Below the pieces are notes generated by a model, which saw only the letters and a program-made list of their open reading frames with translations, was not told the DNA's origin and did no database searches. From contig JAIRSU010000004.1 in the NCBI GenBank assembly GCA_031255285.1, forward strand, positions 1 to 34,007: a stretch of 34,007 bases of DNA, read 5' to 3'. Shown here in pieces: positions 5,120 through 30,300 of this stretch (positions are counted from its first letter, which is position 1; each line of letters begins with the position of its first letter). The stretch is from Treponema sp. (GTDB taxonomy: Bacteria > Spirochaetota > Spirochaetia > Treponematales > Breznakiellaceae). The position numbers were made by a program, and so were the translations under genes.

Positions 5120-5161
5120 CATGAGAGGGACTGGGAACCAAGTCCGAGCCGCCCTCTCATG
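5120..5161 (-). other. 10-bp inverted repeat downstream of paralog A
   Basis: CATGAGAGGG (5120-5129) and CCCTCTCATG (5152-5161) form a perfect 10-bp stem with a 22-nt loop, directly after the stop-codon hairpin of paralog A. No T tract follows, so it is not a classical terminator. It may be part of a structured 3' region. Confidence 0.55.
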
Positions 5162-5181
5162 ATTCCGCAATATCACGGAAT
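5162..5181 (-). other. Hairpin covering the stop codon of paralog A
   Basis: On the minus strand ATTCCG, an 8-nt loop containing the TGA stop, then CGGAAT. The 5' arm is the last two sense codons (Ile-Pro). Paralog B has the same hairpin at the same place with ATCCCG and CGGGAT, a compensatory change. Confidence 0.65.
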
Positions 5182-5826
5182 GACTACTTCCCGTACATCG
5201 GACCAGTGGCTCTCGCCTCCCTTGGTGAGATAGCGAAGCGAGTAGTACAGTTTCTTCGCGCGCTCGGCCGCGGAAAACGTACGCTCCCAAGGATTGCGGG
5301 AGAACGTCCCGTTGTGCGTCAGCAACTCAGGGCTGTCAATCGGCGTGTGTGAAACGGTCCATGCAATCTCAATGCGGTCAACCCCGTAAGGCTTTGCGCC
5401 GAGGTACCGTATCTTGATCACGCCTGGTTCGCGGGCGCTGATGAGCGCCTCGCTGTCCGGTCCCGCATCTGGTATCGGCACCGGAGACGGCTCCCGGTCG
5501 GATGCGGTAACGCCCATCTCTTGTTTCTGCCCGTCGTTCATTTTGCCGTTGTTGCGTATCCGCTCCCGGGCGAATTTCCGCATAGCGTCAATCGCGTCCT
5601 TTCTCAGCTCGTCCTTTTCGATGCGGTTCGCCTTGGTCGGCGTAGTCCGATATACGGTCCGCGCGTCTAGGAACGTCGTGAATGCGTCTTCGGTCTGGGT
5701 GCATTCGTCAGCGGGCCAGCCGTAAGCGGTTCGAAGCGCATGGTTGGACAGTTTTACCCGCCAATCCGCTATAAGCTCAACGAGCTTTTCTTCTTGTGTT
5801 GGAACCCAGTCTACTCGTCCAGACAT
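5173..5826 (-). CDS. Conserved hypothetical protein, paralog A of a two-member family in this window
   Basis: A 217-residue protein with no signal peptide or membrane segment. Three parts: an N-terminal helical region (residues 1-95, WVPTQEEKLVELIADWRVKL onward), a linker (about 96-130, MNDGQKQEMGVTASDREPSP then PVPIPD) and a C-terminal predicted beta domain ending YYSLRYLTKGGESHWSDVREVVIP. From memory, this layout, with an MG(L/V)xxxDxxPxPxPxP linker and a WSxxxxxxIP end, belongs to a widespread conserved hypothetical family in Spirochaetes and Bacteroidetes. Its function is unknown to me. The frame stays open 29 codons further upstream into the repeat array, but GGAG (5832-5835, minus strand) is 5 nt from the ATG at 5826, which fixes the start. 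It lies downstream of the DUF262-HNH gene on the same strand, with the repeat array between. Confidence 0.8.
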   Translation of the reverse strand: MSGRVDWVPTQEEKLVELIADWRVKLSNHALRTAYGWPADECTQTEDAFTTFLDARTVYRTTPTKANRIEKDELRKDAIDAMRKFARERIRNNGKMNDGQKQEMGVTASDREPSPVPIPDAGPDSEALISAREPGVIKIRYLGAKPYGVDRIEIAWTVSHTPIDSPELLTHNGTFSRNPWERTFSAAERAKKLYYSLRYLTKGGESHWSDVREVVIP

Positions 5827-5831
5827 ATCTG

Positions 5832-5856
5832 CTCCTTTTTGCACAATATTTGTGCA
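5832..5856 (-). promoter_or_regulatory. Hairpin abutting the Shine-Dalgarno sequence of paralog A
   Basis: Minus strand: TGCACAA, 3-nt loop, TTGTGCA (5840-5856), then AAAA, then GGAG and the ATG. A perfect 7-bp stem ends exactly four bases before the ribosome-binding site. Paralog B has an unrelated-sequence hairpin with the same spacing. Confidence 0.55.
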
Positions 5857-5859
5857 TTT

Positions 5860-6342
5860 TATATTGATAAAGAATTCTCTATCAAAACTATAGAGCTCTT
5901 TTTCAATAATCAAGGGCTTTCTATTAGAAATAGAGAGCCCTTTGTCGATAATTAAGAACTCTCTATTGAAAATAGAGAGCCATCCGCCAGTAATCGAGAG
6001 CTTTCTATTGAAAGTATAGAGCCCTTAATCGATAATCAAGAACCCATCGCTAAAAATAGAGAGTCCTTAATCGGTAATCAAGAACCCACTGCTAAAAATA
6101 GAGAGCTTCCAATCGATAATCAAGAACCCACCGTTAAAAATAGAGAGCTCTTTGTCAGTAATCAAGAGCTCCCTGGAGATGGAGGGACGTCCCTATCATT
6201 AATAAAGAATTCCCGATTAACGATATATGCGTCTCTATCAGCAATATAGAGCTCTCCATTAGCAGTATAGAGCCAGCCGCCAGCAATATAGAGTCCTCCA
6301 TTAGCAGTATAGAGGCGCAAACTGGTAATCTTGCGCACCTAT
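5860..6342 (-). repeat. Array A: 23 tandem units of exactly 21 bp
   Basis: Units step every 21 bases without any indel for 483 bp, for example 6028, 6049, 6070, 6091, 6112 and 6133. In the middle two unit types alternate (ATCGATAATCAAGAACCCA and GCTAAAAATAGAGAGTCC on the plus strand), giving a 42-bp higher-order period. Many units hold short palindromes (AGAGCTCT, GAATTC, ATCGAT) and one holds GGGACGTCCC (6184-6193). Twenty-one bases equal seven codons: on the minus strand the frame leading into paralog A reads as heptads such as REFLIID and KGLSISN, and 6155-6409 is open as an 84-codon hydrophobic heptad frame. However, both strands have stops inside the array (TAA on the minus strand near 6028 and 6070), so full translation is not possible. 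It lies between the DUF262-HNH gene and paralog A. Confidence 0.9.
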
Positions 6343-6434: not shown

Positions 6435-7553
6435 TTACTTTCCAGATTTTCTTCGGTTGCATTCTTTGCACAACATCTGGCAGTTTTCCGCGTTTGTTTT
6501 GCCCCCTGAACGCCACGGGTTTATGTGATCCCCTTCCATGTCCTGCATTTCAAAATGTTTCCCGCACTTTCCGCAGATTCCGTTCTGCTGTTCATAAGCC
6601 TCGCGCTTCATGGTTTCGCTAAACGCGCGGATGTTTAAATGGCGTTCGTCTTGGTCCAAAACATAGGCGTAAACGCCTTTTTTGTTGGTTACATCATCGT
6701 CCCGCATTAAGCGAGAAATTTCTTTTTCCAATGCGGCTGGGTCGAGCGTTTTATCTTTATGGTTATTGTATAATATACCCCAATCAATGCCTTTCATTTC
6801 TCTTCGATAATTGAACTTGCCTTGAACCCATGTTATGACGGACTGAAAATATGACCATAAGGGAAGCGCATCGGGGTCGCGCTGGTGTTTTGACATATAG
6901 TCTTCTATTGAATCTAAGGGCTTGCTTCCGCCTGTTGTTTCGATGGTTTCCGTGCGCCAAATCCAACCAACGGCGGTTTCCAAATAATCCTGCCTGATTG
7001 CCGTGCCGTTTAAGTATTTGTTGCCAATTTGATATGCGGGGCAGTTGGTTTTGCTGAAATACCTTTTCGCATCGGTAAGCCAGGGACCGGTATACACGGC
7101 GTTCCGCAATTCTTGTTTTGTCAAAACCGCGCCTGCTATATTGACAATTTCAAACCATGATAATTTCTCTGAATCCGTACCTTCACAAAAATAAACCATC
7201 AATTCGTAATTGAGTATTTGTTCCTGTTCATCATTAGCAAGCGTATGAAAATATTTATGTTCTATTGGGAAATTATTTTTGACATATTCGCAGATGCTGA
7301 TTGTCCGCTGTTGCCCGTCCAACACTTCAAAAGAATCATCGGAATTTTTTACCCAATGCATAACGTTGAGCGGGAAATCGTTGCGGACCGTATTGATGAC
7401 CGCGTTCCGCTGTTCGTCTTTATAGACAAATTCCCTCTGGTACTTGGGGCGTATATCGAGCTTCCCGCCGTAGCCCTTCACGCCTTCCTCGTCAGAGTTT
7501 ACATAGTCTCTTACCAATTCTCGAATCGGGATGTTGTGTAATTTGATATTCAT
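6435..7553 (-). CDS. DUF262 domain protein with C-terminal HNH endonuclease motif
   Basis: A 372-residue protein. The N-terminal half is a DUF262 (GmrS/ParB-like nuclease) domain: IRPKYQREFVYKDEQRNAVI, then VLDGQQRTISICEYV with DGQQR at residues 79-83. The last ~48 residues form an HNH motif with zinc-binding pairs: CGKCGKHF, GDHINPWRSGGKT, NCQMLCKECNRRK. DUF262-HNH proteins are found in restriction of foreign DNA, for instance in GmrSD-type and BrxU-like enzymes. It follows the EcoRI-family methyltransferase by 18 bp on the same strand, so the pair looks like a two-gene restriction-modification operon. No clear Shine-Dalgarno sequence precedes the ATG. Base composition is more AT-rich than the flanking core genes, consistent with transfer. 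Confidence 0.88.
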   Translation of the reverse strand: MNIKLHNIPIRELVRDYVNSDEEGVKGYGGKLDIRPKYQREFVYKDEQRNAVINTVRNDFPLNVMHWVKNSDDSFEVLDGQQRTISICEYVKNNFPIEHKYFHTLANDEQEQILNYELMVYFCEGTDSEKLSWFEIVNIAGAVLTKQELRNAVYTGPWLTDAKRYFSKTNCPAYQIGNKYLNGTAIRQDYLETAVGWIWRTETIETTGGSKPLDSIEDYMSKHQRDPDALPLWSYFQSVITWVQGKFNYRREMKGIDWGILYNNHKDKTLDPAALEKEISRLMRDDDVTNKKGVYAYVLDQDERHLNIRAFSETMKREAYEQQNGICGKCGKHFEMQDMEGDHINPWRSGGKTNAENCQMLCKECNRRKSGK

Positions 7554-7559
7554 GTACTT

Positions 7560-7583
7560 TTATTGTTTTCTTTATTGTTTTCT
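7560..7583. repeat. 12-bp tandem duplication between methyltransferase and DUF262-HNH genes
   Basis: TTATTGTTTTCT occurs twice in direct succession (7560-7571 and 7572-7583). The second copy holds the last codons and stop of the methyltransferase. A slippage event here would change the intergenic spacing but not the protein. Confidence 0.75.
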
Positions 7584-8654
7584 TTTGATAAAGATACGAG
7601 CGTAAGTATTTCTGCCATTCATGAGAGGTCTTGCGTCTTTAAATTTACTATTTTTTTCAAGCCCAACGATTTCCGCATTATATCCCGCAGATGCCGACAT
7701 ACCAATAATTTCAAATTGTTCGGGGTTATATTTATCAAGAAATGTTACAGGCACGCCCATTGCGCCGCTATAGTCCGCGGGGATTTCTATCGTCTTGCTT
7801 ACTTCTATCGCATCGTAATTATCATAACGAGGGTACTCCTGCGGCGTGTACTTCTTCCAAAGAATCATTTCTTCGTGGCGTTTCTTATGGTCGATATTGG
7901 TAAACCAGCAAGCCTGGGACCTGCCTTTGACCGCCCCGTTTACTATTCTGTAAGCGCTTCCTTCTCTTTTATTTTCAAGAAAGTTTTTTTCGTATTTTTC
8001 AGGCACATTAAACAACATATCGGTCCCCATAGGCATACGCCCTATCCACATTTTATTCTCTTTTATCAATCTAAAAATTTCTTTATATGTTATGGCGTTT
8101 TTATTCCCGATTATCAAAAACTTCTTTTCATATTCAATCAGTTGCGCTACATATTCGCGGAAAAGGCTGAACGGCGGATTCGTAACCACAACATCCGTTT
8201 CTTTGAGCATTTCTACACATTCAGGCGAGCGAAAATCCCCGTCTCCCTGCAAACGGGTCAGAGCGTTCTTCTTGTTCCGTAAAAGATATTCAACAAGGGG
8301 AAGCCCTCTTTCATTGCTTGATTCTCCTTCAACCATTTCCATTATTTCGATTCTATGCGGGTGTTTGGTGGTCTTGTTTTCCACGCTCTCATGGTCGAAA
8401 AGCGACAGCTGTGTGTTGGCAATGGGCGATCCAATATAACAGCTGGCAATTAGTTTTTTCAGTTCTAAATGATTGAAATTTAACGCAAAATATTTGAAGA
8501 ATTCGCTTTCATATGGGTCGTCGCAGTTGCAAAAAATGGTTTTACCCTTAAAATGCCCCTTATAATGGGAACATTCGTTTGATATATCCGAAATTTGCGT
8601 GTAGAATTCATCGTTTTTCGCCTTACTGGCTTTAATTAATGTGGTATTCGCCAT
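7572..8654 (-). CDS. EcoRI-family adenine-specific DNA methyltransferase
   Basis: A 360-residue protein. It starts with KASKAKNDEFYTQISDISNE and FKGKTIFCNCDDPYESEFFKYF, which is typical of the M.EcoRI-type Pfam family, and has the catalytic N6-adenine motif NPPF at residues 159-162 (VVVTNPPFSLFREYV). Other family marks are CYIGSPIANTQLSLFDHES-like linker, the LIIGNKNAITYKEIF segment and the C-terminal GYNAEIVGLEKNSKFKDARP. It would methylate adenine in a specific DNA site. The recognition sequence cannot be read from the protein. It is the first gene of an operon with the DUF262-HNH nuclease. It has no Shine-Dalgarno sequence, but a strong promoter ends 9 bases before the ATG. Confidence 0.9.
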   Translation of the reverse strand: MANTTLIKASKAKNDEFYTQISDISNECSHYKGHFKGKTIFCNCDDPYESEFFKYFALNFNHLELKKLIASCYIGSPIANTQLSLFDHESVENKTTKHPHRIEIMEMVEGESSNERGLPLVEYLLRNKKNALTRLQGDGDFRSPECVEMLKETDVVVTNPPFSLFREYVAQLIEYEKKFLIIGNKNAITYKEIFRLIKENKMWIGRMPMGTDMLFNVPEKYEKNFLENKREGSAYRIVNGAVKGRSQACWFTNIDHKKRHEEMILWKKYTPQEYPRYDNYDAIEVSKTIEIPADYSGAMGVPVTFLDKYNPEQFEIIGMSASAGYNAEIVGLEKNSKFKDARPLMNGRNTYARIFIKRKQ

Positions 8655-29201: not shown

Positions 29202-29476
29202 GGAGTTGAACTCCCAGGAGACAGGGTTCAATTCCTGGGAAGCGTGGTTCAATTTCTGAGAAGTGGAGTTCAATTCCTAGGAGGTGGGGTTCGATTTCTG
29301 GGAAATGGGGTTCAATTCCTAGGAAGTGGGGTTCGATTCCTAGGAGGTAGGGTTCAATTTCTGGGAAGTAGAGTTCACTTCCTAGGAAGTGGAGTTCAAT
29401 TCCTAGGAAGTGGAGTTCAATTCCTAGGAAGTGGGGTTCGATTTCTGGGAAATGGGGTTCAATTTCTAGGAGGTAG
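29162..29476 (+). repeat. Array B: 15 tandem units of exactly 21 bp
   Basis: Units start at 29162, 29183, 29204, 29225 and so on to 29456, with no indel. Units 4-15 are very similar: (G/A)GTTC(A/G)ATT(C/T)CT(A/G)GGA then (A/G)(G/A)T(G/A)G. Most contain the 10-bp palindrome TTCCTAGGAA or a one-base variant. One plus-strand frame reads as heptads GVQFLGS/GVRFLGN (open from 29244 to 29783), but it has only a GTG start, no ribosome-binding site, and runs through paralog B in the wrong frame, so I doubt that it is translated. A degenerate sixteenth unit begins at 29477. The array sits between the AraC gene and paralog B. Confidence 0.92.
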
Positions 29477-29490
29477 GGTTAAATTGCGGG

Positions 29491-29575
29491 GTTTTGCACA
29501 GCAAAACTCTGAAGTGCGCGTCTTTAGCGCATCAATTTTTGTATTACAAACAGCGGCTTCTGCCGCACAAGGAGG
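29491..29575 (+). promoter_or_regulatory. Three-hairpin leader with Shine-Dalgarno sequence of paralog B
   Basis: Three perfect small stems in a row: GTTTTGC/GCAAAAC (29491-29507), TGCGC/GCGCA (29515-29531) and GCGGC/GCCGC (29553-29566). The last ends four bases (ACAA) before GGAGG (29571-29575), which is well spaced from the ATG at 29581. Paralog A has the same hairpin-4 nt-GGAG arrangement. Confidence 0.55.
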
Positions 29576-29580
29576 TTTTT

Positions 29581-30288
29581 ATGTCGGATTGGTATCCCCT
29601 TTCACGGGATGGACAAATTCACATGGTGGAAACATGGCTTGCGGTCTTCAAGACCAAAGCCGCGGACTGGGGAATCCCCGCGTCCAATGTAACGGACTTG
29701 GCGGCGGCTCTGACCGCTGCAAAAGAAAAGCTCGCTTTAGTCAAGAGCGGCGAGCGGACCGCGGTCAGCGTGGTGGAGTGTAACGAGGTTTTCAAAGAAA
29801 TGGAGACGGAAGCCCGGTTTATCAAGAGGCACTGGCTGCTTGTCCCGCCACTGGCGGCCGCGGACCTGGCGTCCCTGCTCCTCTCTCAGGAGGACGACTC
29901 TCGCACTCCGATAGGGAAGCCCACGGGACAGCCCTCTGTTATCGTTACCTACCCCGGCGGACCGCATCTCCTCAAGGTTCATCTTACGTTCCTTGCGGGG
30001 ACCCAGCCGCTTGATGTGCGGAGCGACTATGGTTACGCCCTGTACCGGGGGATTATGCCCCAGGGCGGAGCTACGCTGGAACAGGCGGCAAGCGCCAAAC
30101 ACTACCTGATGAAGCCGCCGCTTGACGGAGAAGAACTGATCCACTATCGATTCACCCGGCGCAAGACGGAAAATGTAAGCTTCAGCGCCGAAGAGTCAGG
30201 CATGATGGCGTACTTCTGCGCCCGCTACGAGAACGGCAAAGGCGAAGAAGGACAATGGGGACCGGTCGCATCGGCGGTCATCCCGTAA
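29581..30288 (+). CDS. Conserved hypothetical protein, paralog B
   Basis: A 235-residue protein without signal peptide. It shares the layout of paralog A: N-terminal helical part (SDWYPLSRDGQIHMVETWLA, about 1-95), a Pro/Gly/Thr linker (DSRTPIGKPTGQPSVIVTYP, about 100-125) and a C-terminal beta domain ending YFCARYENGKGEEGQWGPVA-SAVIP. The C-terminal pattern RY...G(E)xGxWxxVxxxVIP and both flanking hairpins match paralog A, while overall identity is low. The frame is open from an ATG at 29494, but only the ATG at 29581 has a ribosome-binding site. It lies between array B and a structured intergenic region before the GH30 gene. The function is unknown to me. Confidence 0.82.
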   Translation: MSDWYPLSRDGQIHMVETWLAVFKTKAADWGIPASNVTDLAAALTAAKEKLALVKSGERTAVSVVECNEVFKEMETEARFIKRHWLLVPPLAAADLASLLLSQEDDSRTPIGKPTGQPSVIVTYPGGPHLLKVHLTFLAGTQPLDVRSDYGYALYRGIMPQGGATLEQAASAKHYLMKPPLDGEELIHYRFTRRKTENVSFSAEESGMMAYFCARYENGKGEEGQWGPVASAVIP

Positions 30289-30300
30289 AACCTGCGGGAT
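30280..30300 (+). other. Hairpin covering the stop codon of paralog B
   Basis: ATCCCG (last two codons, Ile-Pro), a 9-nt loop starting with the TAA stop, then CGGGAT. Compared with paralog A, one pair has changed from T-A to C-G on both arms. The 3' arm is repeated 60 bp downstream (CTGCGGGATT near 30292 and 30351), giving an alternative partner. Confidence 0.65.

Follow-up and report, generated by a model that had tools for sequence, protein, structure and literature searches.

Two copies of one layout in the window

The window, i.e. the whole stretch of 34,007 nucleotides of Treponema sp. DNA analysed here, contains two copies of the same arrangement, copy A on the minus strand and copy B on the plus strand: a tandem repeat array is followed by a hairpin in front of the ribosome-binding site, a gene, and a second hairpin over the stop codon (Table 1). 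The sequences of arrays and hairpins differ between the copies and the layout agrees. The first-pass annotation had suggested selection on the architecture and had offered a self-regulated RNA-binding protein, a DNA-binding array or a mobile non-autonomous unit as possible roles. The layout was found in both copies as described there, and the assignment of the two genes to one conserved-hypothetical family was borne out by 35 % identity over the C-terminal part and by strong matches to the family profile (5.6e-58 for A, 2.3e-82 for B). The repeat units had been called exact; this holds for the period of 21 bp, whereas the unit sequences are similar rather than identical, with match fractions at lag 21 of 0.53 in the array of copy A and 0.79 in that of copy B. 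Neighbouring lags in both arrays gave 0.19-0.39, and lag 42 in copy A reached 0.66. Taken singly, the array of copy A had no significant dyad symmetry (p 0.08) and that of copy B a modest one (p 0.03). The endonuclease and methylase genes adjoining copy A probably form a restriction-modification pair; this pair is also present in genomes G003 and G006, with no family gene seen beside it.

Table 1 Location of arrays, genes and hairpins in the window and of related features at other loci
Feature	Location	Strand	Remarks
Copy A, gene	5173..5826	(-)	217 aa, helical and FnIII-like domain; open reading frame, GGAG 6 nt upstream of ATG, family-profile match
Copy A, array	5868..6316	(-)	period 21 bp, ~21 units, partly alternating (42-bp super-period); lag analysis and TRF
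Copy A, hairpin before ribosome site	5840..5856	(-)	TGCACAA-ATA-TTGTGCA, 7-bp stem, between array and ribosome site, ends 4 nt before GGAG
Copy A, stop-codon hairpin	5162..5181	(-)	ATTCCG...CGGAAT, 6-bp stem; probably coincidental, not conserved in the family
Copy B, gene	29581..30288	(+)	235 aa, three-helix domain ~9-98 and FnIII ~115-235; AlphaFold pLDDT 91, FnIII Z 9.8
Copy B, array	29203..29491	(+)	period 21 bp, ~13.8 units, consensus GGGTTCAATTCCTAGGAAGTG, core TTCCTAGGAA; dyad p 0.03
Copy B, hairpin before ribosome site	29553..29566	(+)	GCGGC-TTCT-GCCGC, 5-bp stem, ends 4 nt before GGAG
Copy B, stop-codon hairpin	30280..30300	(+)	ATCCCG...CGGGAT, 6-bp stem; probably coincidental, not conserved in the family
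Genes adjoining copy A	6435-7553 and 7572-8654	(-)	GmrSD_N/HNH endonuclease and EcoRI-type adenine methylase
7-bp arrays	L022 1036-1125, L024 2677-2741, L038 2159-2262, L039 986-1034, L044 2225-2281, L050 2035-2100; also L110, L153, L160		upstream of family genes
7-bp and 21-bp arrays, L300	10841-11715		family gene absent nearby
22-bp arrays GACTTCAGCATCTCTCGGTTAC	L230 6111-6436; L064 2-379; L217 14356-14757; L240 6183-6422 and 10402-10485		
Remnants of family genes	L290-L293 (G262), L294 917-1363, L297 8816-9484		frameshifts or stops
HU-DUF4469 loci with downstream arrays	L348, L349, L351-L354, L358, L374-L403		

A 21-bp array upstream of family genes

A 21-bp autocorrelation peak upstream of homologues had been proposed as a check, and this analysis was run. 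In a first set, 75 of 77 upstream regions had their peak at lag 21 when lags 10-34 were compared. The mean self-similarity of these regions was 0.52 at lag 21, 0.28 at lags 20 and 22 and about 0.25 at most other lags, and it was high again at 42 and 63, the multiples of 21. In the larger set the strongest upstream repeat lag was exactly 21 bp for 119 of 130 homologues. Their arrays have 11 units and end 52 nt before the ATG (medians); among the 11 exceptions, several have weak arrays or arrays hidden by a 7-bp repeat. Among 305 control genes of the genome that contains the window, inspected over 450 nt upstream, 12 had any array, two of these with a period of 21 bp. The 21-bp rule is common even to proteins with less than 25 % identity, related loci not being independent of each other. 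The fixed architecture with free sequence, in the form of an array and then a gene, holds in well over 100 loci of one protein family.

The unit sequence is private to each locus and differs from copy to copy. Array similarity climbs with protein identity from 0.52 to 0.81. The arrays of L001/L033 and of L077/L076/L078 are unrelated despite about 81-85 % protein identity. The unit is thus not strictly determined by the protein, and L001/L033 and L077/L076 contradict a strict co-evolution of the two. At 9 of 101 loci, 7-15 copies of a perfect 7-bp unit (CTCACGG, CCCGGCT and similar sequences) form a tandem array 200-700 bp upstream of the gene; no such array was present in 895 kb of the genome that contains the window. 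At L300, a 7-bp array is followed by three adjoining 21-bp arrays with unlike units.

The protein family

The genome of the window (2.15 Mb in 131 contigs, 79 % complete) has about 20 family members. Matches were obtained in 28 of 60 genomes of relatives, all within the same taxonomic family and with a maximum of 52 matches per genome; other families of the same order had none (0 of 23 genomes). Across the phylum, 13 of 393 genomes matched, 11 of them from this taxonomic family. Eighty loci from a genome collection were all from Treponema or Spirochaete records, except two labelled Planctomycetaceae, which are probably misbinned. The naming of the collection records suggests termite-gut metagenome assemblies. 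Outside a single family of termite-gut treponemes, the protein family is nearly absent. A genome in a single contig of 3,855,671 bp (G353) has two intact copies with arrays of 21 and 22 bp, and another single-contig genome of 4,059,867 bp (G262) has decayed copies only (L290-L293), one with three 21-bp units. As it is seen in these single-contig genomes, the multicopy module is not an assembly artefact. Remnants of family genes with frameshifts or stops also occur at L294 and L297.

No Pfam or NCBIfam model covers the family; the comparison of 45 members with Pfam yielded nothing up to E 0.1 beyond chance, and a sequence search in the PDB had no match. The proteins of copies A and B are both short and lack a signal peptide. 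The family is characterised by a three-helix domain and a fibronectin-III (FnIII) domain. The confident AlphaFold model of copy B has three long helices, then the FnIII domain, which is a seven-stranded beta-sandwich (VIA-align, rmsd 2.8 over 94 residues; Foldseek 2.2e-4). For the helical domain alone Foldseek gave no significant match; a known fold is still possible. A DNA-binding fold was not recognised in the predicted structure, the protein is near neutral (median pI 6.7, net charge about -1), and the family has no catalytic-looking invariant residues. Close paralogue pairs have dN/dS values of 0.08-0.30, thus purifying selection acts on the protein and the protein matters.

Symmetry of the units and signals at the gene edges

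At the family loci the units have a dyad symmetry of 0.605, compared to 0.504 in column-permuted arrays. Mismatches at paired positions were G-T in 153 and A-C in 145 cases, hence a G-U preference is absent. Since G-T is no commoner than A-C, the symmetry appears to belong to double-stranded DNA and not to an RNA hairpin, and an array of RNA hairpins was dropped as an explanation. Among the roles offered by the first-pass annotation, the DNA-binding array and the mobile non-autonomous unit fit the data best, whereas the RNA-binding role for the protein found no support in this mismatch pattern.

A period of 21 nt equals seven codons, and the array may be read as a leader of heptapeptide repeats. 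An open sense frame is present in 61 of 70 arrays against 47 expected; however, the three codon positions are equally variable (0.29, 0.30, 0.27), a common peptide is lacking, and the frame relative to the gene is inconsistent except in related loci. A coding array is hardly credible, and we dropped it.

Both hairpins are real in copies A and B. A stop-codon hairpin with a stem of at least 6 bp occurs at 18 of 147 loci against 8.4 expected and is not a family feature; a place for it in the module is unsupported. It was also considered as the end of a mobile element and rejected: its 3' arm belongs to the downstream sequence, which differs between close paralogues. The hairpin before the ribosome site (stem of at least 6) is enriched, with 38 % of family loci compared to 15 % of other genes and 5 % of shuffled sequences, and it persists at loci whose array is distant, but it is present in about a third of the loci only. 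The first-pass annotation would have called the match of the two copies a coincidence if most homologues lacked array and hairpins; the array is present in most of them, and the two hairpins are mostly missing. No T-tract follows the hairpin in front of the gene (on average 1.9 T in 8 nt), so it is not a usual terminator. TATAAT-like -10 motifs between array and gene are not enriched (45 of 119 against 39.4 expected), and a promoter at this position is unsupported.

The order of short tandem repeats upstream of a gene for about 200 amino acids is that of ToxIN (PMC4627078), and a relationship to type III toxin-antitoxin systems was considered, in which repeat RNAs made from the array would neutralise the product of the gene behind it. 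The hairpin in about a third of the loci would suit such a system. The palindromes without G-U bias speak against RNA hairpins, the hairpins before the gene are without T-tract, neither a Pfam toxin match nor invariant catalytic-looking residues were detected, and a genome may have up to 52 matches to the family. We regard this reading as very improbable.

Joint duplication of array and gene

Pairs of close paralogues, frequently from the same genome, clearly share the upstream array region (z 20 to 280), and in these pairs the 250 nt that follow the gene, like the sequence far upstream, are for the most part unrelated. As a rule the homology breaks off no more than a few bases from the stop codon, and the two paralogues often have different stop codons. 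At the dS of 0.24-0.6 in such pairs, unselected flanks should still align, and we therefore read the pattern as duplication of array and gene as a unit. Exceptions are of two kinds: the downstream flank is shared in four pairs (L157/L163, L156/L157, L171/L174, L138/L144), and genes are shared with unrelated arrays in L001/L033, L086/L111, L150/L153 and L111/L126. Target-site duplications, a terminal motif or a clean empty site were not found at the loci, around which relatives differ too much.

Arrays without family genes and a second protein family

In 895 kb of the genome of the window, about 40 arrays of 20-25 bp were detected, most of them not beside family genes; these other arrays have periods of 21, 22, 23 or 24 bp. 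The arrays of this genome form sequence types that recur at several loci, and at least 5 of about 20 array types are dispersed elsewhere in the genome. The types of L015, L020, L012, L016 and L021 recur without a family gene, several between convergent genes or 3' of genes, although some gene-less arrays lie at contig ends, where an adjacent gene is possible. No further copy of the array of copy A or B was found among 40 scored of 103 candidates. A 22-bp array family, GACTTCAGCATCTCTCGGTTAC, occupies at least 5 loci of the same genome, and next to one of its copies a Y1 transposase gene lies at a distance of about 14 bp. Y1_Tnp matches number 13 in this genome; two adjoin arrays (22 and 23 bp).

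The strongest rival to an array read by its protein is a process like that of REP/RAYT, in which an enzyme acting in trans, e.g. a Y1 transposase, copies the arrays; array and gene would be a non-autonomous cassette, and the array a substrate of mobility without a regulatory role. Arrays of the same unit at loci without the gene, several of which are located between convergent genes in the manner of REPs, the duplicated unit of array and gene, which ends sharply at the stop codon, and the Y1 genes next to the 22- and 23-bp arrays point in this direction. However, 11 of the 13 Y1 genes are without such an array, the search for terminal motif, target-site duplication and clean empty site remained negative, and the fixed periods of 21 in the family of A and B and of 23 in the family described below are left unexplained. 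We consider this explanation possible, with doubts.

The second family comprises genes with the Pfam domains HU-DNA_bdg and DUF4469. In 31 of 39 loci, which came from nine genomes, an array lies directly downstream of the stop codon; arrays are almost never upstream. The period is 23 bp, in two loci 24 bp. The units differ by locus and have a dyad symmetry of 0.696, compared to 0.553 in permuted arrays; with 30 G-T and 34 A-C mismatches, a wobble bias is absent here as well. A homology between the two protein families is unsupported, as the profile comparison gave a probability of 0.1 %, and the domains PF14848 and PF14734 are absent from the family of A and B according to Pfam. With 21 bp upstream in one family and 23 or 24 bp downstream in the other, side and period of the array follow the protein family, and the unit sequence follows the individual copy. 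HU is a known DNA-binding fold. By analogy with the HU-type family, DNA targets would be the favoured role of the arrays.

The many arrays, about 40 in 895 kb and most not beside the family, could also mean that these genomes readily form minisatellites of 21-24 bp, and that functionless arrays hitchhike with duplicating genes. Such a by-product appears improbable. Arrays accompany 119 of 130 loci and 4 % of the control genes, each protein family has its own fixed side and period, the units have dyad symmetry, and at dS 0.24-0.6 the array is still recognisable in most close pairs and the flanks are not.

Proposed role of the module

We tentatively propose, with a probability of about 40 %, that the module consists of a protein and its private DNA-binding array, which duplicate as a unit. 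Each copy would have two parts, a private array of about 11 (4-20) DNA sites and, directly downstream, the gene for a small cytosolic protein. The spacing of 21 bp corresponds to two helical turns and would place all sites on one face of the duplex. The protein, alone or with a partner, may bind to the duplex DNA of its own array and in this way may regulate its expression and label the locus. Array and gene would spread by duplication of the unit, by whatever way of moving, and the copies could diverge into new pairs of protein and array. That each protein or its complex reads its own array is the simplest account of the fixed geometry, the free sequence, the duplex symmetry, the side rule, the joint duplication and the gene-less copies. 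The main doubt comes from arrays that are unrelated at about 81-85 % protein identity and from the predicted structure, in which no DNA-binding fold was seen.

More speculatively, there may be a general class of self-labelling genes, although we would rather doubt it than assume it. The FnIII type (21 bp upstream) and the HU-DUF4469 type (23 bp downstream) would each keep for every copy a private DNA barcode array that is read only by the neighbouring protein. Duplication and divergence of these pairs would yield dozens of orthogonal combinations of protein and DNA, which could serve regulation, chromosome organisation or element competition. If true, dozens of copies with their own site arrays would represent a natural library of such pairs, and the module would be a genetic unit of a new type, present in many copies. 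With rules for side and period in two unrelated families, a general principle can be tested directly; the HU-type family, with its known DNA-binding fold, offers an entry point.

Relation to described systems

In the open-access literature we could not match the arrangement of gene and repeats to a described system, which is not a proof of absence, and these open-access papers contained nothing relevant on comparable arrays in treponemes. In iteron replicons such as pSC101 and R6K, direct repeats about 21-22 bp apart precede a gene, and an inverted repeat frequently adjoins its promoter. The repeat spacing resembles that of the 21-bp arrays. In contrast to iterons, the units described here are palindromic, present in tens of copies and chromosomal, with loci near gltX and in the single-contig genomes of 3.9 and 4.1 Mb. 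The N-terminal domain is predicted to be all-helical without a wing, unlike a winged-helix Rep, and a Pfam Rep family was not matched.

The TAACTGA heptamers of Beggiatoaceae are likewise repeated in tandem shortly before start codons, and a role in regulation has been proposed for them, but there one fixed sequence occurs at many unrelated genes (PMC4679880), whereas here each copy of one family has a sequence of its own. Type III toxin-antitoxin systems (ToxIN, CptIN, TenpIN) share the locus-specific tandem repeats directly upstream of a gene for about 200 amino acids (PMC4627078). They differ from the module in that its symmetry appears to be at the level of DNA and not of RNA, its unit has 21 bp, its protein has an FnIII domain, a terminator is lacking, and Pfam and NCBIfam gave no match to ToxN/AbiQ/CptN/TenpN or an RNase family.

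The likeness to REP sequences and their associated tyrosine transposases (REP/RAYT) lies in the pairing of a gene with adjacent palindromic repeats of a matching type, in further cognate repeats at other places of the genome, and in a sequence specific to each gene lineage (PMC2817692). There, the gene is flanked by two repeats in inverted orientation (PMC2817692); here, head-to-tail arrays with a fixed 21-bp period occur on the upstream side only, and the downstream flanks of close paralogues are unrelated. A RAYT gene encodes a Y1 (HUH) tyrosine transposase; the family of A and B is without a Y1/HUH domain and is modelled as a helix bundle with an FnIII domain. A further difference is that the gene described here exists in tens of copies, and that array and gene duplicate jointly.
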